Below, in pieces: positions 42,152 to 51,000 of a stretch of DNA of 51,000 nucleotides. Under the pieces are notes generated by a model. The model was not told the origin of the DNA and searched no databases. It was given only the letters and a program-made list of their open reading frames with translations. The first letter of the stretch is position 1; every line of letters starts with the position of its first letter. A program made the translations under genes and the position numbers. This stretch comes from Gammaproteobacteria bacterium (GTDB lineage: Bacteria; Pseudomonadota; Gammaproteobacteria; Steroidobacterales; Steroidobacteraceae), in the NCBI GenBank assembly GCA_028870355.1, contig JAGWPU010000102.1, positions 1 to 51,000 on the forward strand, given 5' to 3'.

Positions 42152-42589
42152 CTAGGCCGAGACCACCTCGCCCGCGAACTCGCGCTCCGCGGCGATCGAG
42201 TTCGCGACCAGACAATCGCGATCCGCCTTGTCGAGGAGCCGCCGCGCCTTTGCCGCATCCGCACCGGCCGCGATGGTCAAGGTCGCGGTCGTGCGAAGCC
42301 GCGAGAACCGCAACTGGCGATCGACGCGGTCGAGCACGCCCTCGACCCGGCACTCGAGCCGCAGCCAGCCGAACATCGACGCGGCACTGACCGCGCGGAA
42401 GGTGAGCACGAAGCAGTTCGCGATCGCCGCCGGCAGCAGGGTCTCCGGCGACCACTGTGCGCCGGTGCCGCCGAACTGTGCCGACGGACCCGCGGCGATC
42501 GTCGCGAGACCGGGGGAGCTCACCGCAACGTCCCCGGACTGCCCGGCCTCGGCGGATGCACGATAGACGTGTGGGAACGGCTCGATCAT
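42152..42589 (-). CDS. OsmC-family protein
   Basis: The 145-residue protein has the OsmC fold blocks: AQWSPETLLPAAIANCFVLTFRAV with the first catalytic Cys and KARRLLDKADRDCLVANSI with the second. OsmC/Ohr proteins are thiol-dependent peroxidases; a few act on persulfides, which may be relevant here (inference). It lies 10 bases after the FadL gene stop on the same strand, in the set with dsrE and tusA. Confidence 0.9.
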   Translation of the reverse strand: MIEPFPHVYRASAEAGQSGDVAVSSPGLATIAAGPSAQFGGTGAQWSPETLLPAAIANCFVLTFRAVSAASMFGWLRLECRVEGVLDRVDRQLRFSRLRTTATLTIAAGADAAKARRLLDKADRDCLVANSIAAEREFAGEVVSA

Positions 42590-42599
42590 CGACGCGGCA

Positions 42600-43964
42600 C
42601 TAGCGCGGCCAGGCGTACGCGAAATCCAGGATGTACTGGTGCATCCGCAGGGAGATCGTCTGCGTCGGATCGAACGAGTTCGGGCCGCTGACCGTCTTCT
42701 CCGGCGCATAGGTGAACGCCATGTCGAACTCCCCGCGATCCGCGAGGTGCCGGATGAATCCGACCGCGATGTGATCCTCGACGACGCCGGGCGCGAGGAT
42801 GTTGAAGGTCGCCTGTGAGCTCGGAACCGGCTGTCGGGCGTGGCTGAAGCCGAACCGGCCGGTCCAGTCCTCGTCGATCTCCCAGCTGACGCCGAGCTTG
42901 ATCACGGTCATGTCGCGCCAGCCGAACCCCGGTCCGGACGCGCCGCCGAGGCAGTCCTGCAGATTCAGCCCCGGAGCGCCGGTCGTCGGGCAGGAGAACA
43001 GGTTCGCGATCGGATTGCTGACGGACGGCACGTCGCTGTACCAGATCTTCTGGACGTCCACGTCGAATGCGACCGGGGGCACCGGCTTGTAGGTCACGCC
43101 GATGGTCGCGTTCGCCGGAATGTCGAAGCCGCCGTGCTGCGCGAACAGGTCGGCGTACTTGGTGAGCCGCGACATGAACATCTTGGTCGTGTACGACGCC
43201 GCGGCGCTGAACTCGGGCACTGGCCGCCATTCGACGCCGAGCGATGCCCCGCCGCCGTAGGACATGTCGGCGCCGTTGTTGGTGAGCGCCGTCGGCATCA
43301 CGGTGCCGCCGCTCGCGGCGAAGGTCTCGGTGTAGGGCGCGAAATTCCCGAGGCCCCGCGCGACGAAACGCTGCATCGCGATGATCGCCGACGCGCCAAC
43401 CGAGAGCTGCCGGTCGAGCAACGCGTGCGCGAAGGTGAAGTTCAGGAACCCTTGCATCAGATCGACGCCCGCGGTTCCGGCGCCGTACGTCCCCGGCAAG
43501 GTGACCGGCGCGGCGCCCGGCCCCGGCGCGAACGTCGCGGTGCCGCCCTGCCACACGGTGTTCATGCCGCCGCGCGCATAGAACGCGACGGCGACGCTGT
43601 CGGACGGATCGAGCTGCCAGTTGGCCGCGATATAGGGGATCGGGAACAGCTTGTCGCCGCTGTTGATCGAGTTCGGCCCGATCGTGAACGCGCCACCATG
43701 ACCGTTCGCGAGGCTCGGCGAGGTCGAATAGCTGCGGTCCGGACTGAACAGCGACAGTCCGACCTCGAGGCGGTCCGGGACGAACGCGAGGCCCGCTGGA
43801 TTCGTCGCGATGACCATCACTTCCTCGGGATCGGCGCTGCCCGCACCGGCGAGGCCATCGCTCTTCACGCCGACGCCGTCGGTCAGATAGCCGTTCGTCG
43901 CCTGGGCGACGCCCGCCGCAAGCACCGTCATCGACACGACGACCTTGGGTAGCCAGTGTTTCAT
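42600..43964 (-). CDS. FadL/OmpP1-family outer-membrane channel
   Basis: The 454-residue protein has a signal peptide (AAGVAQATNG) followed by the N-terminal hatch of the FadL family: GYLTDGVGVKSDGLAGAGSA, with EEVMVIATNPAGLAFVPDRLEVGLSLF. Beta strands of a barrel follow to the terminal aromatic-rich strand FAYAWPR. FadL barrels admit hydrophobic molecules. Position in a set with TusA and DsrE suggests import of hydrophobic sulfur or organosulfur substrates (inference); fatty acid uptake is the family default. Confidence 0.88.
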   Translation of the reverse strand: MKHWLPKVVVSMTVLAAGVAQATNGYLTDGVGVKSDGLAGAGSADPEEVMVIATNPAGLAFVPDRLEVGLSLFSPDRSYSTSPSLANGHGGAFTIGPNSINSGDKLFPIPYIAANWQLDPSDSVAVAFYARGGMNTVWQGGTATFAPGPGAAPVTLPGTYGAGTAGVDLMQGFLNFTFAHALLDRQLSVGASAIIAMQRFVARGLGNFAPYTETFAASGGTVMPTALTNNGADMSYGGGASLGVEWRPVPEFSAAASYTTKMFMSRLTKYADLFAQHGGFDIPANATIGVTYKPVPPVAFDVDVQKIWYSDVPSVSNPIANLFSCPTTGAPGLNLQDCLGGASGPGFGWRDMTVIKLGVSWEIDEDWTGRFGFSHARQPVPSSQATFNILAPGVVEDHIAVGFIRHLADRGEFDMAFTYAPEKTVSGPNSFDPTQTISLRMHQYILDFAYAWPR

Positions 43965-44036
43965 CGCCGCACCTCCGTGTTGCACGGCTCCGTGACAGAG
44001 AACTCGATCGCCGGTCAGCCCTCGCGGCGCATCCGA

Positions 44037-44264
44037 TCAGGCGGACTTGCGCAACACGAACCGATAGACGTTTCCCTCGGTGCTCGACTCGACCAATTCG
44101 TTGCCGGTGGTGCGACAGAACGCCTCGAAGTCCTTGACCGAACCCGGATCGGTCGCGAGCACCTCGAGCGTTCCGCCGGCGCCGAGCGTCTGCAGCGCCT
44201 TCTTCGCGCGCAGGATCGGCAGCGGGCAGTTCAGGCCTTTCGCATCGAGTGTCTGGTCCGCCAT
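44037..44264 (-). CDS. tusA: TusA-family sulfur carrier protein
   Basis: The 75-residue protein contains the conserved CPxP motif in GLNCPLPILRAKKAL, whose Cys carries a persulfide, and the C-terminal beta strands VYRFVLRKSA. TusA is a central sulfur shuttle in sulfur oxidisers. It lies 36 bases after the DsrE gene, an arrangement common in sHdr- and rDsr-containing organisms. In this role sulfur passes between rhodanese, DsrE and TusA toward sHdr. Confidence 0.95.
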   Translation of the reverse strand: MADQTLDAKGLNCPLPILRAKKALQTLGAGGTLEVLATDPGSVKDFEAFCRTTGNELVESSTEGNVYRFVLRKSA

Positions 44265-44300
44265 CGTGCAATCTCCGCCGCGGCGCCACGCCGCGGGACG

Positions 44301-44804
44301 TCAAATGAACAGGTTGATTTCCGATTGCGTCGCGACGTCGATATAGGTCGCCGCGCCGCCGAGTTCCGGCCCCTCGATCATGTCCTTCAGCGTGTAGTCG
44401 AACAGATCCATCGTCATCTGGCACGCGATCATGCGTATGCCGGATTCGACCGCGAGCCCGCGCAGGTCCTCGATGGTCGCGACGCCCTTCTTGCGCATCA
44501 GACGGGTCATCATCGTCGACGCGGCCGCGTCGACGCCCGGGATCATCGAGGCGAGGTTCGGCATGCCCATGTGCATCCCCGCCACCGGCATCTTCATCGC
44601 CGGATTGCCGAGCGGCGAGAGTTGCAGGTCCAGGTTCTTCAGCAACAGGGGCAGACCGTAGAAGGTGAAGAACATCGTGACGTCGAGCCCCATCGCCGCG
44701 GCGGTGGTCGCCAGGATGAACGGGGGATACGCCCAGTCGAGCGTGCCCTTGGTGACGATGATCGACATGCGCTTGGCGCGCCGCTCGGAACCTGTGTCAG
44801 CCAT
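44301..44804 (-). CDS. dsrE3A: DsrE3A-like sulfurtransferase
   Basis: The 167-residue protein belongs to the DsrE/DsrF/DrsH fold: MSIIVTKGTLDWAYPPFILATTAAAMG, TMFFTFYGLPLL, and a C-terminal active Cys in GIRMIACQMTMDLFD. The methionine-rich middle (AMKMPVAGMHMGMP) is typical of the DsrE3A group, which trades sulfur with TusA. The start at 44804 follows a strong GAGGGGGA ribosome-binding site, so the longer N-terminus is preferred over MSIIV at 44768. Confidence 0.88.
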   Translation of the reverse strand: MADTGSERRAKRMSIIVTKGTLDWAYPPFILATTAAAMGLDVTMFFTFYGLPLLLKNLDLQLSPLGNPAMKMPVAGMHMGMPNLASMIPGVDAAASTMMTRLMRKKGVATIEDLRGLAVESGIRMIACQMTMDLFDYTLKDMIEGPELGGAATYIDVATQSEINLFI

Positions 44805-44843
44805 CTGTCCCCCTCAGGCTCGCGTCGATTGTCGCCCGAACAT

Positions 44844-44868
44844 AGCAAATCCGGAGCAAATAGCCAAT
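44844..44868. repeat. Three near-identical 7-base direct repeats
   Basis: AGCAAAT at 44844-44850, AGCAAAT at 44855-44861 and AGCCAAT at 44862-44868 lie in the divergent spacer. The first two are 11 bases apart, about one helical turn. Such spacing can fit a DNA-binding protein on one face. Confidence 0.55.
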
Positions 44869-44880
44869 GATTCTATTAGC
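44863..44880. promoter_or_regulatory. Imperfect palindrome GCCAAT-N6-ATTAGC
   Basis: The arms GCCAAT (44863-44868) and ATTAGC (44875-44880) match in five of six positions as inverted repeat. The right arm ATTAGC also forms the left arm of the palindrome before the second DsrE gene (50326). A shared regulator is possible. Confidence 0.5.
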
Positions 44881-44887
44881 GTGCACG

Positions 44888-44909
44888 CATATGAGGATAA
44901 GATCATATG
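44888..44909. promoter_or_regulatory. Perfect palindrome CATATGA-N8-TCATATG
   Basis: CATATGA (44888-44894) and TCATATG (44903-44909) form perfect 7-base arms with an 8-base spacer in the divergent region between dsrE3A and the deacetylase-family gene. Inverted repeats with 8-base spacers are used by persulfide-sensing ArsR-type regulators such as SqrR, so an ArsR-like operator (for example sHdrR) is a reasonable inference. No regulator gene is present here. Confidence 0.7.
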
Positions 44910-44995
44910 GAGGGCCTTGCATCCGCGGTTCCCCTGCTCCGATAGCGCCCGCCGCGATCCGGGGAATACGGGCCGAACCGCGGCCGGGACGGACG

Positions 44996-46108
44996 ATGCG
45001 ACGATCGACGATCTTCATCGGCAGCGGTACGTGGGACACGCCCGGCTTCGGCGATGCCCATCCGCTCGCGATCCCGCGGGTCGCCAGCGTCGTCCGCCTG
45101 TGCGAAGCGCTCGGGTGGCTCCCGCCGGAGGCGTTTCGCGCGAGCCCGCACGCGTCGATCGCCGAACTCGCGAGCTTCCATTCCGCGGCGTACGTCGCTG
45201 CGCTCGCGGAAGCCGACGCCACCGGGATCGCGCGCGTCGAGATCCGCGAGCGCTTCGGGATCGGCACGCGCGAGAATCCGCTGTTCCCCGGCGTCTTCGC
45301 TCGTGCAGCGGCGGCGGTCGGGGGCTCGCGGCTCGCGGCGGACCTCGCGATGCGCGGTCACCTGTGCTTCCACCCGGAAGGCGGCACCCACCACGGAAGG
45401 CCGGATCGCGCGAGCGGCTTCTGCTACTTCAACGATCCGGTGTTCGCGGTCCGCCGGTTCCTCGAACGCGGCGTGGACCCGGTGCTCTACGTCGACCTCG
45501 ATGCGCATCACGGCGACGGCGTGCAGGACGCGTTTCGCGACGAGCCACGGGTGCACACGGTCTCGATCCACGAACGGGGCCGCTGGCCGTACACCGGGGC
45601 CGCGACGGATCGGGGCGGCGGCCGATCGTGGAATTTCCCGGTCCCGGCGGGCTTCCACGACGCGGAGCTGGAGCTGTTGATGCGCGAGGCGGTGCTGCGG
45701 ATCGCCGCGCGGATCGCGCCGGCGGGGGTCGTGATCGTCTGTGGCACCGACGGGCTCGCCGGCGACCCGCTGTCCGGGCTCGCGCTCGGCAACAGCGCGC
45801 TCTGGGATGCGGTGCTTGCGTTGGTCGCGGTGGCACCGGCCGCGGTGGTGCTCGGCGGCGGCGGCTACAATCCGTGGACGCTCGCCCGCGCCTGGACCGG
45901 GTTGTGGGCGCGGCTCAGCGGTCGGGCAATTCCGGAGTCGCTCCCCGACGCCGCGCGGCAAGTCCTTGCGAACCTCGGGTGCGACCTGATTGACGAGGAT
46001 CGGATCGATCCGGCATGGTTGACCACGCTCGCCGATGCGCCGCGCCCGGGAGCGGTGCGGGCCGAGGTCCGCGGTCTCGTTCCGGATTGGGAGGCTGTCA
46101 CGACGTGA
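44996..46108 (+). CDS. Histone-deacetylase / acetoin-utilisation family zinc hydrolase
   Basis: The 370-residue protein keeps every catalytic element of class I/II deacetylases: the His-His dyad in EGGTHHGRP (132-133), GFCYFND (141-147), zinc ligands Asp169 and His171 in DLDAHHGDG, a third ligand Asp252 in CGTDGLAGDPL, and the GGGGYN loop carrying the transition-state Tyr. It should remove acyl groups from lysines, polyamines or other amines. Its stop overlaps the lipS1 start (GTGA), tying it to lipoate assembly. The start at ATG 44996 gives the normal N-terminus. Confidence 0.9.
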   Translation: MRRSTIFIGSGTWDTPGFGDAHPLAIPRVASVVRLCEALGWLPPEAFRASPHASIAELASFHSAAYVAALAEADATGIARVEIRERFGIGTRENPLFPGVFARAAAAVGGSRLAADLAMRGHLCFHPEGGTHHGRPDRASGFCYFNDPVFAVRRFLERGVDPVLYVDLDAHHGDGVQDAFRDEPRVHTVSIHERGRWPYTGAATDRGGGRSWNFPVPAGFHDAELELLMREAVLRIAARIAPAGVVIVCGTDGLAGDPLSGLALGNSALWDAVLALVAVAPAAVVLGGGGYNPWTLARAWTGLWARLSGRAIPESLPDAARQVLANLGCDLIDEDRIDPAWLTTLADAPRPGAVRAEVRGLVPDWEAVTT

Positions 46109-47178
46109 CGAACTGGGTCGACGCGCTCGCACAGATCGAGGAACTCGACCAGGCGCCCATCGACGCCGCGCTCGTCGCCGATCTCGAGGCCCGTGCCACG
46201 ACCGTGCGCGGACGGCCGATCCGGTTCTCGACGCCGACGTTCAAGGATTACGCGAGCACGGAGCTGCGCGGGTGCTCGAAGAACAGCTTTCCGGCGTTCT
46301 CGATCACCGGCGCGGCCTGCGCGCTGGACTGCGAGCACTGCCGCGCGAAGATCCTCGCGCCGATGCTGCCCGCGACCTCGCCGGAGATGCTCGATCGCAA
46401 GGTCCGCGAACTGATCGCGACGCAGGACCTGCGCGGCTTCCTGCTGTCGGGAGGCTCGAACCGACGCAACGAGATCCCCTATCGACGCTTCTACCCGGTC
46501 GTCGAGCGGCTGAAGCGCGACCATCCGGACCTGCAGATCGCGATCCACACCGCGCTCACCGACCTCGGCGGCGCCCGCGCGATGGAGGCGGCGGGCGTCG
46601 ACGTGGCGATGCTCGACGTGATCGGCGCCGAGGAGACGATCCGCGACGTCTACCATCTGGACCGCCCGGTCGCTGACTTCGAAGCGACGCTGGAGGCGCT
46701 GTGCGCGACCTCGATGGCGGTGACCCCGCACGTCGTGATCGGCCTGCATTTCGGCCGGATCCTCGGCGAGCGGACCGCGATCGACATCGTCGCCCGCCAC
46801 CCGGTCACGAATCTGGTGCTGGTCGTCGTGATGCCGTTCTACGCGACGCCCGGCACGTTCCGCCCCCCTGCGGCCGAGGACGTCGGGCGGATCTTCGCCG
46901 AGGCGCGGCGCCGGCTGCCGGACCGCAAGGTGCTGCTCGGCTGTGCGCGGCCGCCGGGCATGCACAAGCGCGTGACCGACGCGTACGCCGTGCTCGCCGG
47001 CCTCGACGGAATCGCGTTCCCGGCGGACGGCGCGGTCGCGGTCGCCCGGGCGATCGGCCGGCCTTACGAGCAGCAGAACGCGTGCTGTTCCATCAAGATC
47101 GGCGAACCCGCGCGCCGCGCGGGCGCCTGCAGTTCGATCGGGGCCACCGCGGCTCCGGACGGAGGAGTCCTCGCATGA
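46105..47178 (+). CDS. lipS1: LipS1, radical SAM lipoate synthase component
   Basis: The 357-residue protein has the radical-SAM cluster motif CX3CX2C at Cys72, Cys76 and Cys79 (ACALDCEHCRAK), the GGSNRRNE-like 'GGE' region and a Cys-containing C-terminus (EQQNACCSIK). Family, size and neighbours match LipS1, which with LipS2 inserts sulfur into octanoyl chains. It starts at GTG 46105 and ends overlapping lipS2 by ATGA. The paired LipS1/LipS2 system is known from sHdr sulfur oxidisers. Confidence 0.86.
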   Translation: MTNWVDALAQIEELDQAPIDAALVADLEARATTVRGRPIRFSTPTFKDYASTELRGCSKNSFPAFSITGAACALDCEHCRAKILAPMLPATSPEMLDRKVRELIATQDLRGFLLSGGSNRRNEIPYRRFYPVVERLKRDHPDLQIAIHTALTDLGGARAMEAAGVDVAMLDVIGAEETIRDVYHLDRPVADFEATLEALCATSMAVTPHVVIGLHFGRILGERTAIDIVARHPVTNLVLVVVMPFYATPGTFRPPAAEDVGRIFAEARRRLPDRKVLLGCARPPGMHKRVTDAYAVLAGLDGIAFPADGAVAVARAIGRPYEQQNACCSIKIGEPARRAGACSSIGATAAPDGGVLA

Positions 47179-48443
47179 GTTGCATCGAACCGTCACGCGC
47201 AGCGGCGAACGCCGGGCCGGCGGCAGCCACCGATCACAACGGCTTCGCGGCGATGCAGCCGCGCGCGCCGGCACCGACACCGCCGCAGAGGCGCAACGGC
47301 GCACGAGTGAAGAGCGCCGACGAGCGGCCGAACGGCGTGTACCTGCCGAACAACAACCTGCTCGCGCCGCACATGCGCTCGCCGGACTACGTGCAGATGT
47401 CGACCGCGGCCGCGATGACGCTCGGGATCATGCCGGGCCGGATGCATCGCTGCGGCTGCACCCGCTGCCTGAACCTGTTGCTCACCTATCCGGAAGGGTG
47501 CCGCGCGAACTGCGCGTACTGCGGGCTCGCGCGCCACCGCGAGGCCGAGCGAGACTATGCCGATCGCAACTTCATCCGCGTCGACTGGCCGGCCGTGCCG
47601 CTCGAGCAGGTGATCGACATCGTCGCGCGCGATCCGGCCGCCAGTCCGTTCCACCGGATGTGCATCTCGATGATCACCCATCCGCGGTCCGACGCCGACA
47701 CCGTCGCGGTGCTCGACGCGTGGACGCGCCGGATCGACCCGGCCGCGATTCCGGTGTCGATCCTGTCGAACCCGACGACGATGGAGCGCGCGGACGTCGT
47801 GCGCCTGAAGGACTTGGGCGCGGAGATCTTCACCGTCGCGCTCGACGCGGCGACGCCGGCGATCTTCGAGCGGACTCGCGGCAAGGGCGTGCAGTCTCCG
47901 CACAAGTGGGAGAAGTACTGGGAGATCCTGCTCGCGGCGCGCGACGTGTTCGGCCCGGGGAAATTCGGGACCCACGTGATCATCGGGATGGGCGAGACCG
48001 AGTCCGAGGCGCTCGCGCTGGTGCAGCGCGTCGTCGACCTCGGCGGCCACAGCCACCTGTTCTGCTTCTTCCCGGAGCGCGGTTCGCTGATGGATCATCT
48101 GCCGGCGACCCCCCGCGACCAGTGGCGGCGCGTGCAACTCGCGCGGTATCTGATCGATTACGCCGGCGCCCGCGTCGAGCAGATGCGCTTCGACGAGCAA
48201 GGCCGGGTCGCCGACTACGGCGTGCCGGCGGGCGAGCTCGAGCGGATCATCGGCGAGGGCGTCGCGTTCCGCACCTCCGGCTGCCCGGGCAAGTTCCGCG
48301 ACGACGTGTCGGCCTGCGACCGGCCCTACGGCGACTCGCCGCCGAGCAACATCGCGAGCTACCCGTTCCAGCCGAACGCACGCGACCTCAAGCGCATCCG
48401 CCGACAGCTCGGCGTGCGCGCGCGCGATCCCGAGGAGGCATGA
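47175..48443 (+). CDS. lipS2: LipS2, radical SAM lipoate synthase component
   Basis: The 422-residue protein has the radical-SAM motif at Cys109, Cys113 and Cys116 (GCRANCAYCGLAR) and an extra cysteine group CGCTRC (93-98) just before it that may bind an auxiliary cluster. A low-complexity Ala/Pro-rich N-terminus of about 50 residues precedes the conserved part (VYLPNNNLLAPHMRSPDYVQM). A GGAGGAG site precedes ATG 47175. It overlaps the ligase gene by ATGA. Together with LipS1 it should form lipoate from octanoate. Confidence 0.86.
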   Translation: MSCIEPSRAAANAGPAAATDHNGFAAMQPRAPAPTPPQRRNGARVKSADERPNGVYLPNNNLLAPHMRSPDYVQMSTAAAMTLGIMPGRMHRCGCTRCLNLLLTYPEGCRANCAYCGLARHREAERDYADRNFIRVDWPAVPLEQVIDIVARDPAASPFHRMCISMITHPRSDADTVAVLDAWTRRIDPAAIPVSILSNPTTMERADVVRLKDLGAEIFTVALDAATPAIFERTRGKGVQSPHKWEKYWEILLAARDVFGPGKFGTHVIIGMGETESEALALVQRVVDLGGHSHLFCFFPERGSLMDHLPATPRDQWRRVQLARYLIDYAGARVEQMRFDEQGRVADYGVPAGELERIIGEGVAFRTSGCPGKFRDDVSACDRPYGDSPPSNIASYPFQPNARDLKRIRRQLGVRARDPEEA

Positions 48444-49519
48444 GCGCGCGCTTTCGGGTCGTCGACGCGGGGCTCCAGGAGGGCCGCTACAACATCGCGC
48501 TGGACCAAGCGATGCTCGAGCTGCATCAGACCGGCGCGATCCCCGATTCGGTGCGATTCATCCACTTCCAGCCGAGCGCGCTCGTCGGGCGACATCAGGC
48601 GCTGTCGCAGGAAGTGGATCTCGAGTACTGCCGCCGCCACGGCATCGGCGTCGGCCGACGCATCACCGGCGGCGGGGCGATCTATCTCGACGAGGGGCAG
48701 CTCGGCTGGGCGCTCGTGTTCAGCCGTCGCACGCTCGGCGCCGCGACGCTCCCGGACGTCGCGCGCCGGATCTGCGAAGCCGCGGCGCAGGGATTGAGCC
48801 GTTTCGGCGTCGATGCCCGGTTCCGGCCGCGCAACGACATCGAGGTCGACGGCCGCAAGCTGAGCGGCACCGGGGGATTCTTCGACGGCGAATCGTTGAT
48901 CTACCAGGGCACGGTGCTCGTCGATCTCGACCCGGCCGCGATGCTCGGCGCGCTGCGGATCCCGCAGGCGAAGCTCGCGAAGCGAGGTCTCGATTCCGCG
49001 GCGGCCCGGATCGTCACGCTGCGCGAGTTGCTCGCGGGCGCGACGCCGGCGATGCCTGCGGTCGAGGAGGCCTTGCTCGCCGGCTTCGAACAGGCGCTCG
49101 GCCTGGAGTTCGAACGCGCCGCGCCGAGCGATGCCGAGCAGCGGCTCGCGCAGCGTCTCTACGCCGAGTCGATCGGGCGCGAGGCGTTCGTCGCCGAGAT
49201 CGATGCGCCGCCGCGGGGTCGCGGGGTGCGGGTGGGAACCCACGCAGCTCCGGGCGGCACGATCACGGTGTACCTGCGCTGCGAAGGCGACCCGGCGCGC
49301 CGGATCGGGCACGCGCTGATCACCGGCGACTTCTTCGTCGCGCCCCCGCGAATGATCTACGACCTCGAAGCGCAACTGCGCGGCACCCCGGTCGAGGACG
49401 CGGCGGCGAGCGTCGATGCATTCTTCGCGGCGCGCCCCGCCGGCACCGCGACGGTCGGGGCGGCCGACTTCCGGCAGGCGATCGAGGCCGCGCTCGCGAC
49501 ACCGCCGGGTACCGGCTGA
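48440..49519 (+). CDS. Lipoate:protein ligase of the sLpl(AB) type
   Basis: The 359-residue protein contains the BPL/LplA fold: a lipoyl-AMP-binding RRITGGGAIYLDEG (where classical LplA has RRxxGGGxVxHD) and the catalytic Lys in DGRKLSGTGGFFDG. A C-terminal accessory domain (about 260-340, THAAPGGTITVYL, and LITGDFFVAPP) is like LplB, so it is a bipartite ligase. Lipoate ligases of this kind attach lipoate or octanoate to the lipoate-binding protein of sHdr systems. An AGGAGG site directly precedes ATG 48440. Confidence 0.88.
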   Translation: MSARFRVVDAGLQEGRYNIALDQAMLELHQTGAIPDSVRFIHFQPSALVGRHQALSQEVDLEYCRRHGIGVGRRITGGGAIYLDEGQLGWALVFSRRTLGAATLPDVARRICEAAAQGLSRFGVDARFRPRNDIEVDGRKLSGTGGFFDGESLIYQGTVLVDLDPAAMLGALRIPQAKLAKRGLDSAAARIVTLRELLAGATPAMPAVEEALLAGFEQALGLEFERAAPSDAEQRLAQRLYAESIGREAFVAEIDAPPRGRGVRVGTHAAPGGTITVYLRCEGDPARRIGHALITGDFFVAPPRMIYDLEAQLRGTPVEDAAASVDAFFAARPAGTATVGAADFRQAIEAALATPPGTG

Positions 49520-49535
49520 GCGGCGCCGAGCGCAC

Positions 49536-50297
49536 ATGAACGACCGGATCCGCACGCTGGCGGTGATCCAGCACGACTCGGCCGAGTATCTCGGTCTGAT
49601 CGAGGATCATCTCGAGGGCCGCCGGATCCGCTTTCGCTATTTCCGGCCGTTCACGACCGACGGCCGACTCCCCGGATCGGCCGAGCGCGCGGATGGCCTC
49701 GTGCTGCTCGGGGCTGGTCCCTGGGGCGGCGCACCGGGACCCCACCGCCTGCCGACGTTCGAGCCGGAAGTCGCCCTCACGGCCGATGCACTCGCGCGCG
49801 GCGTTCCCATCCTCGCGATCGGGCTCGGCGCGCTGATCCTGTGCGTCGCGGGCGGCGGCACGGTGGAGTCCGCGCCGCTGTCCTTCGAGATCGACCTTGC
49901 CGAACGCACCGCGGCCGACGCGCTCGACGGCTACCTGCCCGAGCGCTTCCCGTCGATCCGCTACGGCCGCGACCGGCCGCACCTGCCTCCGGCGGCGCGG
50001 GTGCTCGCGGTCGACGCGACACGACGACCGGCGCTGTTCCGGATCGGCGCCCGCGCGTTCGGCTTCGCCGGCCACCCCGGCATCAAGACCGCGATGATCG
50101 AGGATCTGATCATGGAATTCCCCGAGTCGCCGCCCGACCCCGGGCCCGCGCTCGCGCGGCTGCGCACGATGAACGCCGCGATCGAGGGCGCGCTGGTGCC
50201 GACGATGACCGGTCTGGTGCGCTGCCTGGGATGGATGGAACCGGACGGCCCGGGGCCCGAGCCGGGCTCCGTGGAAGCCCGCAGCGCGCCCGGGTAG
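49536..50297 (+). CDS. Class I glutamine-amidotransferase-like protein with Cys replaced
   Basis: The 253-residue protein has the GATase1 fold blocks: GLVLLGAGPWGG, PILAIGLGA (91-99) and FGFAGHPGIKT. The nucleophile position of the usual GICLGA is Gly96, and the His/Glu pair is reduced to FAGHPG, so glutaminase activity is unlikely. It lies 16 bases after the ligase gene and 90 bases before dsrE. A non-catalytic binding role in the sulfur/lipoate pathway is possible. I could not assign a function. Confidence 0.75.
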   Translation: MNDRIRTLAVIQHDSAEYLGLIEDHLEGRRIRFRYFRPFTTDGRLPGSAERADGLVLLGAGPWGGAPGPHRLPTFEPEVALTADALARGVPILAIGLGALILCVAGGGTVESAPLSFEIDLAERTAADALDGYLPERFPSIRYGRDRPHLPPAARVLAVDATRRPALFRIGARAFGFAGHPGIKTAMIEDLIMEFPESPPDPGPALARLRTMNAAIEGALVPTMTGLVRCLGWMEPDGPGPEPGSVEARSAPG

Positions 50298-50325
50298 ACC
50301 GCGCTTGCGCACGCGAACGAAGTAC

Positions 50326-50341
50326 ATTAGCCTCGGCTAAT
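50326..50341. promoter_or_regulatory. Perfect palindrome ATTAGCC-TC-GGCTAAT
   Basis: A 16-base near-perfect inverted repeat with 7-base arms and a 2-base centre lies in the 90-base spacer before the dsrE-sHdr genes. It shares the half-site ATTAGC with the divergent spacer near 44,875. It could be an operator, or the stem of a short terminator/attenuator. Confidence 0.6.
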
Positions 50342-50387
50342 ACCTCGAGGAGCGGCCCGGCTTGCCGGGAAGCGGGGGAGAGTTCGA

Positions 50388-50765
50388 GTGGCGACGAAGC
50401 TGTTGATCGTGATGGCGAACACCGATCTTCGCAACGGCGAGGAACTCGGCGCGCCGATATTCCAGGCGACCGTCGCCGCGGCGATGGAATTCGAGGTCGA
50501 GGTCGTTTGCACCGCAACGTCCGGCCGGCTGCTGAAGAAGGGCGTCGCCGAGACGCTGTTCGTGAAGCCGGGATCGCCGAAGTCGGTTCTCGACTTCATC
50601 AAGGACGCCCACGAAGCGGGCGTGAAGTTCTACTGCTGCTCGCCGAACCTCGATCTGTTTCACATGACCGAGGCGGACCTGATCCCCGAATGCGCGGGGA
50701 TCGTCGGCGGTGCCTATCTGATCGAACGCGTGATGAGCGACGAGTACAAAGTCCTGACCTACTGA
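50388..50765 (+). CDS. DsrE-family small sulfur-transfer protein
   Basis: The 125-residue protein begins at GTG 50388 after a GGGGGAGAG ribosome-binding site. It shows the DsrE fold (LLIVMANTDLRNGEELGAP, AAAMEFEVEVVCTATSG, KFYCCSPNLDLFHM) with a Cys pair in YCCSPNL in the position used by DsrE-type sulfurtransferases, and it ends AYLIERVMSDEYKVLTY. It directly precedes sHdrC1. It is a different DsrE subgroup from that at 44,301. Confidence 0.87.
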   Translation: MATKLLIVMANTDLRNGEELGAPIFQATVAAAMEFEVEVVCTATSGRLLKKGVAETLFVKPGSPKSVLDFIKDAHEAGVKFYCCSPNLDLFHMTEADLIPECAGIVGGAYLIERVMSDEYKVLTY

Positions 50766-50792
50766 CCCCGCCGACCGCGTGAGGGGGCGTGC

Positions 50793-51000
50793 ATGACTGG
50801 CGTGACCGCGACGACGCGCGTACAGGAGTTCATCGGCGATCCGCTCGCCGGCACCACGCCCGTGGCCCGCGAGAAGCTCGAGGAGATCTTCCGGGACATC
50901 CAGGCGGACCTGCGCTTCGATCACGAGCTGAACGGGTGCCTGAACTGCGGGATCTGCACCGCGACCTGCCCTTCGGCGCATTACTACGACTACAGCCCGC
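50793..51000 (+). CDS. hdrC1: sHdrC1 iron-sulfur protein, partial (runs off the window)
   Basis: Only 69 residues are present. They begin MTGVTATTRVQEFIGDPLAG and contain a ferredoxin motif CLNCGICTATCP (49-60: Cys49, 52, 55, 59). A GAGGGGG site lies upstream of ATG 50793. The position after dsrE and the lipoate genes matches the first gene of sulfur-oxidising Hdr (sHdr) clusters, whose order is C1-B1-A-hyp-C2-B2. The remainder lies outside the window, so the subunit name is an inference from context. Confidence 0.75.
   Translation, partial: MTGVTATTRVQEFIGDPLAGTTPVAREKLEEIFRDIQADLRFDHELNGCLNCGICTATCPSAHYYDYSP

Follow-up and report, generated by a model that had tools for sequence, protein, structure and literature searches.

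What is a gene of the histone deacetylase family doing inside a lipoate and sulfur-oxidation locus? The question is raised by one end of the analyzed stretch of DNA (the window, 51,000 nucleotides), where such a gene heads a run of lipoate assembly genes and lies divergent from sulfur-carrier genes (Table 1). On gene content and order, the locus is a type I sHdr cluster for sulfur oxidation, equipped with a predicted lipoate assembly line of its own (LipS1/LipS2-sLpl). Judged from comparison with related loci, the class I-type zinc deacylase is a stable added member of this lipoate/sHdr cluster; as far as the literature searched extends, it is the locus's new, conserved one. Profile searches of the window's ORFs recovered every gene named in the first-pass annotation, with one change of name: the DsrE protein it called dsrE3A is DsrE2 according to NCBIfam. 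Its starting point of 44037 takes in tusA and the genes that follow and leaves FadL and OsmC outside.

Table 1. Features of the locus, with positions in the window and profile scores in bits.
Feature	Position	Strand	Evidence and remarks
OsmC/Ohr-family protein	42152..42589	-	PF02566 52.8; listed ORF reaches 42709
FadL/TodX-type outer-membrane fatty acid transporter	42600..43985	-	PF03349 44
tusA, sulfur carrier	44037..44264	-	PF01206 85.5
dsrE2-type sulfur carrier	44301..44804	-	PF13686 161.6; NF047629 217 (cut-off 210)
Divergent intergenic region	44805..44995		ATTAG element at 44875
Class I-type zinc deacylase (HDAC superfamily, HDLP/AcuC class)	44996..46108	+	PF00850 217.7
lipS1, radical SAM lipoyl synthase subunit	46105..47178	+	NF053742 190.4 (below curated cut-off 230)
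lipS2, radical SAM lipoyl synthase subunit	47175..48443	+	NF053743 183.8 (below cut-off 270)
sLpl(AB)-type lipoate/octanoate:protein ligase	48440..49519	+	LplA catalytic domain, PF21948 147.1 (cut-off 27)
lipX, pseudo-glutamine amidotransferase	49536..50297	+	NF005458 51.8 (cut-off 250); PF07722 weak, 20.7
Perfect inverted repeat ATTAGC-ctcg-GCTAAT	50326..50341		Upstream of dsrE3C; candidate operator
dsrE3C-type small sulfurtransferase	50388..50765	+	PF02635 26.2, PF13686 37.3; named by position
shdrC1, 5' end	50793..51000	+	HdrC-like 30.6 (cut-off 270); cut by contig end

The proposal that the locus feeds an sHdr cluster is borne out by its continuation. A 53-base overlap joins contig C121 of the same genome (locus L007, minus strand) to the end of the window and keeps the shdrC1 frame. 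Extension past 51,000 thus supplies shdrB1, A, H, C2, B2 and I, lbpA and an ArsR-type gene, with B1, A, C2 and B2 assigned by family and H and I by position only. In the relatives L058 and L059, the stretch across the contig break is intact and runs into shdrB2. Window and C121 together hold shdrC1-B1-A-H-C2-B2, the single syntenic cluster by which type I sHdr is defined (PMC11582611). LbpA, encoded beside these genes at C121:6838-7278 (GCV_H, 109.3 bits), carries an acyl-lysine motif, ESGKW, found in 103 of the 104 rows spanning the site; the sole exception is the genome's ordinary GcvH, which reads VESVKSAS. In Hyphomicrobium, sHdr sulfur oxidation requires LbpA and its ligase (PMC10332631).

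The lipoate genes are less than the complete set first described. The genes lipS1 and lipS2 overlap; there is no lipT in the locus, and none was found in the genome (91.85% complete), where the best match to the LipT-like protein of L089 scored 37 bits. This gene is frequent, not universal, being encoded by about 53% of LipS1/S2 bacteria (PMC10332631). The deacylase as a LipT replacement was rejected, since L089 has both. The four-base overlaps reported from the deacylase to the ligase were confirmed as GTGA (deacylase/lipS1, where the GTG start of lipS1 overlaps the deacylase stop codon), ATGA (lipS1/lipS2) and ATGA (lipS2/sLpl). The LipS1 and LipS2 families are the best matches of the two radical SAM proteins, in which CX3CX2C motifs were seen by eye, yet both score below cut-off; among 98 relatives, too, the LipS1 cut-off is never reached. 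Likewise, the C-terminus of sLpl scores 42.1 bits with the LplB model NF053749 (cut-off 65).

Four genes had been grouped with this pathway as new, and the deacylase is the one for which this holds: the literature searched yielded no histone-deacetylase-type enzyme tied to the lipoate metabolism of sulfur oxidizers. The amidotransferase matches the published LipX, a putative glutamine amidotransferase named within such clusters (PMC10332631) and included in the cofactor-assembly gene list (PMC11582611); a GATase1 is shown in PMC6067878. The window's protein appears dead, as its nucleophile cysteine is replaced and no cysteine occurs in the 23 rows covering that position (motif placed by eye). 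The FadL gene fits the published lipY, a putative fatty acid transporter also named within such clusters (PMC10332631). It lies beside tusA in all nine fetched loci of family f1 and was not found in the three f7 loci. The OsmC gene, with a likely start at 42589 immediately behind fadL (read by eye), is mostly a local passenger. It adjoins the locus in three of 12 fetched relatives' loci (L058, L059, L068), and one 34% match sits beside lipS1 in an alphaproteobacterium; the protein is possibly a lipoyl-dependent peroxidase.

A short ATTAG element occurs in all 13 divergent regions compared among relatives (read by eye). It is the only element in common: no long palindrome was found to be kept across these regions, and a CATATGA-N8-TCATATG repeat within the window's region is not kept in the same form. 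From this element and the ArsR-type gene, it is plausible that the divergent arms would be controlled as one regulon.

The deacylase itself has the active-site residues of its class intact. Its ORF opens at 44867, with the first 43 codons conserved in the nearest relatives only, so that translation probably starts at 44996. The best PDB match is HDLP (1c3r, 223 bits over HDLP residues 15-367), from which an arginase-deacetylase fold is predicted. Six zinc and catalytic positions are invariant in both alignments (A1, 10 rows; A2, 31 rows). In HDLP numbering, we take D168, H170 and D258 to be the zinc ligands, and the paired H131/H132 and Y297 to be the further catalytic positions. The foot-pocket motifs, xGGTHH and GGGGY, belong to the open type set out in PMC11532494. 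The closed RPP motif is missing from generic deacetylase paralogs too, 17 of the 18 read having GGGGY together with IAGLHH or IGGLHH. The pocket motif therefore allows an octanoyl group without singling it out, and was discarded as a discriminator of lip-linked copies. Separately, 13 positions with residues specific to the lip clade were found.

Comparison with related genomes shows that the neighborhood is not peculiar to the source genome. The order deacylase-lipS1-lipS2, divergent from dsrE2-tusA, recurs in 10 of the 12 relatives' loci fetched, with two of these (L061, L063) truncated farther along by a contig end. Of the other two, G039 keeps the order but has no deacylase in it, and in G012 the contig ends within the deacylase gene. 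Given these loci and the content of C121, neither a lack of downstream shdr and lbpA genes nor confinement of the linkage to one genome applies to the deacylase. Among distinct genomes with a LipS1 at least about 60% identical to the window's, 21 of 26 have the deacylase in the lipS1 cluster: 11 of 12 among the 98 relatives (window included), six of six further ones from a phylum draw and four of eight further ones from an alphaproteobacterial class draw. At most five candidates were scored per genome in the large draws, and G840 (contigs of G509) and G931 (contigs of G464) were each counted once with their duplicates. A full-length deacylase occurs in none of the 86 relatives without LipS1, a count in which G012 (72% complete), with its fragment at a contig end, is placed among those without one. 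Since the genomes are related, Fisher and binomial values on the linkage were not taken as proof. The tie between the deacylase gene and the lipoate cluster, as conserved linkage, is nevertheless well supported by these comparisons. It is not essential to the cluster, since five lipS1 genomes (G039, G862, G1057, G1092, G1220) lack a linked copy and lipS1 of H. denitrificans is not bordered by one.

The gene could be an ordinary deacetylase carried along by vertical descent and whole-cluster transfer. The linked copies do have a single source, forming one clade in a tree that includes every second non-lip locus (98/95, with two unplaced copies inside) and in another that includes every fourth (100/99, without L273 and L276); several linked copies are in neither, and L098, with its deacylase on the opposite strand some 2.3 kb from slpl, was counted as linked. 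The rest of the cluster also persists in G039 without the gene. However, among the matches listed, linked copies are retained across alpha-, beta- and gammaproteobacterial genomes, and in L248 the gene is kept despite a Sulf_transp gene between it and lipS1. A second arrangement also places relatives of the deacylase close to lipoate genes. Genomes with another LipS1 type (44-54% identical) have such a relative in 18 of 25 cases (229-290 bits, the search that also scored the L276 copy, which is overlapped by an antisense ORF). Seven of the 18 place it 8-18 kb from lipS1, near varying sets of fadL, a second LplA-like ligase and an sHdrI homologue; four of the 25 loci (L167, L169, L171, L174) have flanks no longer than about 1.5 kb. 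We regard mere carriage as quite improbable.

Our preferred reading, held tentatively and with somewhat less than even confidence, is that the deacylase erases or edits octanoyl- or lipoyl-lysine on LbpA, an inferred substrate. Octanoate, imported through FadL or synthesized by the cell itself, would be loaded by sLpl onto the lysine of the LbpA ESGK motif, after which LipS1/LipS2 would insert two sulfurs, with LipX as a putative non-catalytic partner. The deacylase would then hydrolyze the same N-epsilon-acyl-lysine bond. As an editor, it would act on wrongly acylated or unsulfurated LbpA; as an eraser, it would reset LbpA and hand the released octanoate or lipoate back to the ligase. The cluster linkage, the intact active site and the LbpA ESGKW motif favor this reading, as does Bacillus subtilis AcuC (BsAcuC), for which an octanoyl peptide was the best hydrolyzed in a two-replicate pre-screen and which is active on Gly-Lys peptides (PMC11532494). 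Counted against it are the low overall efficiency of BsAcuC on peptides, its octanoyl peptide having Lys, not Gly, before the acyl-lysine (PMC11532494); G848 (locus L125), which has a clade member and in which LipS1 was not found; an alphaproteobacterial sister clade whose fetched flanks are free of lip genes and whose two tested genomes lack LipS1; and the gene neighbors of HDLP.

Release of octanoate or lipoate could also serve salvage, the acyl-lysine of GcvH or of a 2-oxoacid dehydrogenase E2 supplying sLpl while LbpA is no substrate. Either octanoate or lipoate is attached by the ligase, in a pathway whose starting point is free octanoic acid (PMC10332631), and a fatty acid transporter gene lies in the same locus. 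The GcvH site of this genome is Val-Lys, not Gly-Lys, which counts against salvage, and we regard it as quite improbable.

AcuC-like regulation is possible, if doubtful: acetyl or short acyl groups would be removed from a lysine of sLpl, LipS1/S2, LbpA or acetyl-CoA synthetase, coupling sulfur oxidation with carbon status. Aquificota HDLP genes neighbor stress-protein genes and a gene whose product matches the CBS domain weakly (22 bits against a cut-off of 24), and AcuB contains CBS domains. The deacylase is of the same class as HDLP, HDLP and AcuC are both class I (PMC11532494), and acetyl-CoA synthetase is the known target of AcuC (PMC8556138, PMC11532494). Against this, inspection of the lip loci, as distinct from a dedicated search, revealed no acetyl-CoA synthetase or acetyltransferase, and the lipS1 overlap and conserved place in the lipoate operon suggest a partner within the operon.

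A broader proposal, which we consider unlikely, is that the HDLP/AcuC class is dedicated to lipoate metabolism in sulfur oxidizers, with octanoyl/lipoyl-LbpA hydrolysis as the natural role of Aquifex HDLP, the founding HDAC structure. In a draw of 136 Aquificota genomes, 50 have both HDLP (counted from 200 bits upward, with fragments) and LipS1, eight have one of the two and 78 have neither, a pattern that may merely follow phylogeny. The HDLP neighbors are unsupportive: searches with the window's proteins found no lipoate genes, among the matches listed, at nine named loci with flanks of varying length (one labeled Acidobacteria). For four further loci with short flanks, conserved neighbors were listed only.

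In the available parts of the sHdr-lipoate papers searched, no removal or editing step for the LbpA modification was found, and the conserved deacylase gene overlapping lipS1 is a candidate for it. The physiological roles of bacterial HDAC relatives are little understood (PMC8556138); LbpA deacylation would offer a natural-substrate hypothesis for one branch of them, testable with proteins the field already handles.

Among known systems, the closest in layout is the lipS1-lipT-lipS2-slpl(AB)-lipX-dsrE3C-shdr cluster of Hyphomicrobium denitrificans, whose order from lipS1 to shdr is repeated here with the exception of lipT (PMC10332631, PMC10451225, PMC11582611). The position of dsrE3C is the same (PMC10451225), and overlapping start and stop codons, described for such Hyphomicrobium clusters (PMC10332631), and an ArsR-type repressor gene are common to both (PMC10332631, PMC10451225). 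The window differs in its deacylase before lipS1, its lack of lipT and its divergent dsrE2-tusA-fadL; in H. denitrificans, the organism with the proven pathway, the available text places shdrR, not a deacylase gene, next to lipS1 (PMC10451225). B. subtilis AcuC (sub-cluster 2c) is a class I-type deacylase with xGGxHH and GGGY motifs (PMC11532494). It is encoded in the acu operon, targets acetyl-CoA synthetase, and is likened to the deacylase by description. The closest solved relative by sequence is HDLP of Aquifex aeolicus (1c3r, 1c3p), which has the same zinc and catalytic positions, is 33-39% identical and forms a separate clade, outside the lip clade, in both trees. Bacterial lipoamidases, of the sirtuin type or Lpa, have folds and cofactors unrelated to those of the zinc deacylase and, to our knowledge, are not encoded within lipoate operons. 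The reaction, removal of lipoyl from lysine, is what the deacylase would share with the sirtuin-type enzymes (PMC5596343) and with Enterococcus Lpa (PMC2753649).

The genes named in the first-pass annotation are all present in the window, with small corrections only, and the cluster continues beyond it. The window is the entire contig C69 and ends within shdrC1. Screening this genome for GcvH-family proteins located lbpA near an HdrB-like gene on a second, short contig (C121). The reverse complement of C121 opens with the 53 bases that close C69, and the shdrC1 frame is kept across. The annotation had proposed looking past position 51,000 for the rest of the pathway, and shdrB1, shdrA, shdrC2, shdrB2 and lbpA were found on C121. 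In two relatives (L058, L059), the stretch spanning the contig break is intact into shdrB2. With this gene content across C69 and C121, the locus fits the definition of a type I sHdr cluster excerpted from PMC11582611.

Features of the sHdr-lipoate locus and of one comparison locus
Feature	Contig or locus	Position	Description
NiFe-hydrogenase large-subunit-like gene (by eye) and Fer4/CCG protein	C69	39077-42105	just past osmC
ATTAG element (by eye)	C69	44875	in 13/13 divergent regions examined
Deacylase	C69	44996-46108 (+)	histone-deacetylase family (HDLP/AcuC class); overlaps lipS1
LipX	C69	49536-50297	GLGA at the place of the usual cysteine motif
Perfect repeat ATTAGC-ctcg-GCTAAT	C69	50326-50341	upstream of dsrE3C
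shdrC1	C69	cut at 51000	
shdrB1, shdrA, shdrC2, shdrB2, lbpA, ArsR-family gene	C121		
275-aa protein	C121	between shdrA and shdrC2	sHdrH by position
138-aa protein	C121	between shdrB2 and lbpA	sHdrI by position
OsmC-like stretch	L250	3995-4276	34% identical; directly upstream of lipS1

The ATTAG element and the ATTAGC repeat are candidate operators of the ArsR-type protein encoded on C121. The hydrogenase-like and Fer4/CCG genes keep their position in six other loci (L058-L062, L069), and locus L208 carries a hydrogenase gene, 73% identical to the window's, near lip genes.

Most of the novelty claimed for this locus is already published. Excerpts of PMC10332631 describe lipoate assembly by sLpl(AB) and LipS1/LipS2, and include in such clusters lipX (a putative glutamine amidotransferase) and lipY (a putative fatty acid transporter). 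As a result, two of the four genes presented as additions to the pathway (deacetylase, amidotransferase, FadL and OsmC) had already been named in print. The same excerpts report overlapping start and stop codons at lipS2-slpl and slpl-lipX in H. denitrificans. Passages of two further papers place lipX beside dsrE3C and shdrR beside lipS1 (PMC10451225), and show GATase1 within hdr-lbpA clusters (PMC6067878). The deacylase is the real finding; overall, this is a known cluster in a new variant form, with a testable enzyme hypothesis.

LipX looks like a pseudo-amidotransferase: at the nucleophile position, placed by eye, none of the 23 covering alignment rows has cysteine, the window included. Its start, QH-x-S-x-EYLG, is strongly conserved, and two alphaproteobacterial-type rows (L203, L204) read ELGA at the cysteine motif. 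The OsmC-like stretch of L250 belongs to an alphaproteobacterial genome with a cluster that has no deacylase; a reference title within PMC10332631 calls Ohr a lipoyl-dependent peroxidase. The lipS1 and lipS2 genes overlap in the window, and locus L089 has a LipT-like protein between them (geranylgeranyl reductase superfamily, 174.6 bits). No lipT was found in the window's genome, where the best match to that protein reached 37 bits; its absence is likely rather than certain, because the assembly is 91.85% complete.

The deacylase gene is linked to lipS1 in most genomes with the window's LipS1 type (about 60% identity or more). Among 98 relatives, 11 genomes, the window's included, have copies at 51% identity and 426 bits or above, in every case immediately upstream of lipS1. 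The next matches, at 158 bits or lower, are generic paralogs, with the exception of a fragment in G012 (59% identical). LipS1 at 177 bits or more was found in 12 of this set, namely the 11 deacylase genomes and G039. A phylum draw of 398 genomes yielded LipS1 in eight: the window's, six of the same type (61-70% identical), all with the deacylase directly upstream, and one of the other type (G462) without it there. An alphaproteobacterial class draw (385 genomes) yielded ten, two counted before; in the eight further genomes, the deacylase is adjacent to lipS1 in G1099, about 1.2 kb off in G1046, G1140 and G1218, and missing from the cluster in four. The intervening gene in G1046 (L248) encodes a Sulf_transp (SoxT-like) transporter (220 bits). 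In total, the deacylase is in the cluster in 21 of 26 genomes of this type and directly upstream in 18, so the proposed comparison of related genomes bears out its recurrence. Five genomes keep the cluster without it (G039, G862, G1057, G1092, G1220); G862 and G1092 carry a copy elsewhere, grouping with the non-lip clade. Loci L090 and L097 hold deacylase-lipS1-gap-lipS2-slpl modules with no lipX or shdr genes within the fetched flanks, and these modules may serve a different protein.

A second arrangement accompanies the other LipS1 type. Of 369 genomes drawn from the class to which the window is assigned (assumed to be Gammaproteobacteria), 26 have LipS1, and in 24 of these it is of this type (44-54% identity); G462 brings the set to 25. 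In none of the 25 does the deacylase immediately precede lipS1 (four loci having short flanks). Unexpectedly, direct search found a relative (229-290 bits) in 18, seven of which, in six families, have it 8-18 kb from lipS1; the remaining seven genomes of the set have no relative of the class or generic paralogs only. Around the relative, 20 loci (18 other-type, two alphaproteobacterial) share a recurring cluster, with families named from locus L278 alone: aldo/keto reductase (15/20), CbbQ/NorQ-type AAA protein (10/20), 853-aa-type protein (9/20), fadL (8/20), sHdrI homologue (7/20) and a second LplA-like ligase (7/20). In L262-L279 it also holds unknown proteins and is often beside lipS2. The 16 other-type copies placed in a tree form a separate clade (99/99). 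Two clades of one deacylase class thus accompany lipoate and sHdr genes, each in an arrangement of its own.

The lip-linked copies entered in the trees form one clade (98/95 in one tree, 100/99 in the other), sister to an alphaproteobacterial group with no lip genes in view. Two members lack lipS1 in view: L104 lies on a short contig, with LipS1 elsewhere in its genome, and L125 has a lip-clade deacylase, yet LipS1 was not found in its genome (G848). A named genome scan, covering the best 80 loci by similarity to HDLP and not a linkage count, added at least 11 lip-linked copies from genomes labelled alpha-, beta- and gammaproteobacterial.

We propose that the deacylase would act as an N-epsilon-acyl-lysine hydrolase, editing or erasing octanoyl or lipoyl groups on LbpA. 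Its active-site residues are intact. In excerpts of PMC11532494, an octanoyl peptide (QPKKoct) was BsAcuC's best substrate in a pre-screen, and the enzyme was also active on Gly-Lys peptides, with low overall efficiency. Octanoyl-lysine is the intermediate made by sLpl and sulfurated by LipS1/LipS2, according to the available text of PMC10332631. Of 104 alignment rows spanning the acyl-lysine of LbpA, 103 have it within ESGKW(V/A)G, as do all 59 rows from 37 non-overlapping loci; the ordinary GcvH of the window's genome reads VESVKSAS there. PMC11532494, as excerpted, also assigns an open foot pocket (xGGxHH, GGGY) to AcuC-type and long-chain enzymes. Sequence shows the gene linkage, and the proposed reaction rests on these lines of evidence. 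Several results count against the proposal: the pocket motif is not specific, the five genomes named above keep the cluster without the gene, and seven of the 25 other-type genomes have no relative of the class or generic paralogs only. No earlier mention of such a deacylase with lipoate genes was found in the literature searched, and one may exist.

By sequence, the closest relative with a solved structure is HDLP, from Aquificota. Of 136 Aquificota genomes drawn, 50 have both HDLP and LipS1, three LipS1 only, five HDLP only and 78 neither; this co-occurrence may follow phylogeny. A contig labelled Acidobacteria (L076) has a deacylase nested within Aquificaceae HDLPs, reflecting mis-binning or transfer. 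The neighbors of Aquificota HDLP differ from those described here, comprising a universal stress protein, a Cache/CBS-like protein, an aminotransferase, a symporter and gyrB, and this difference counts against the lipoate-linked reading.
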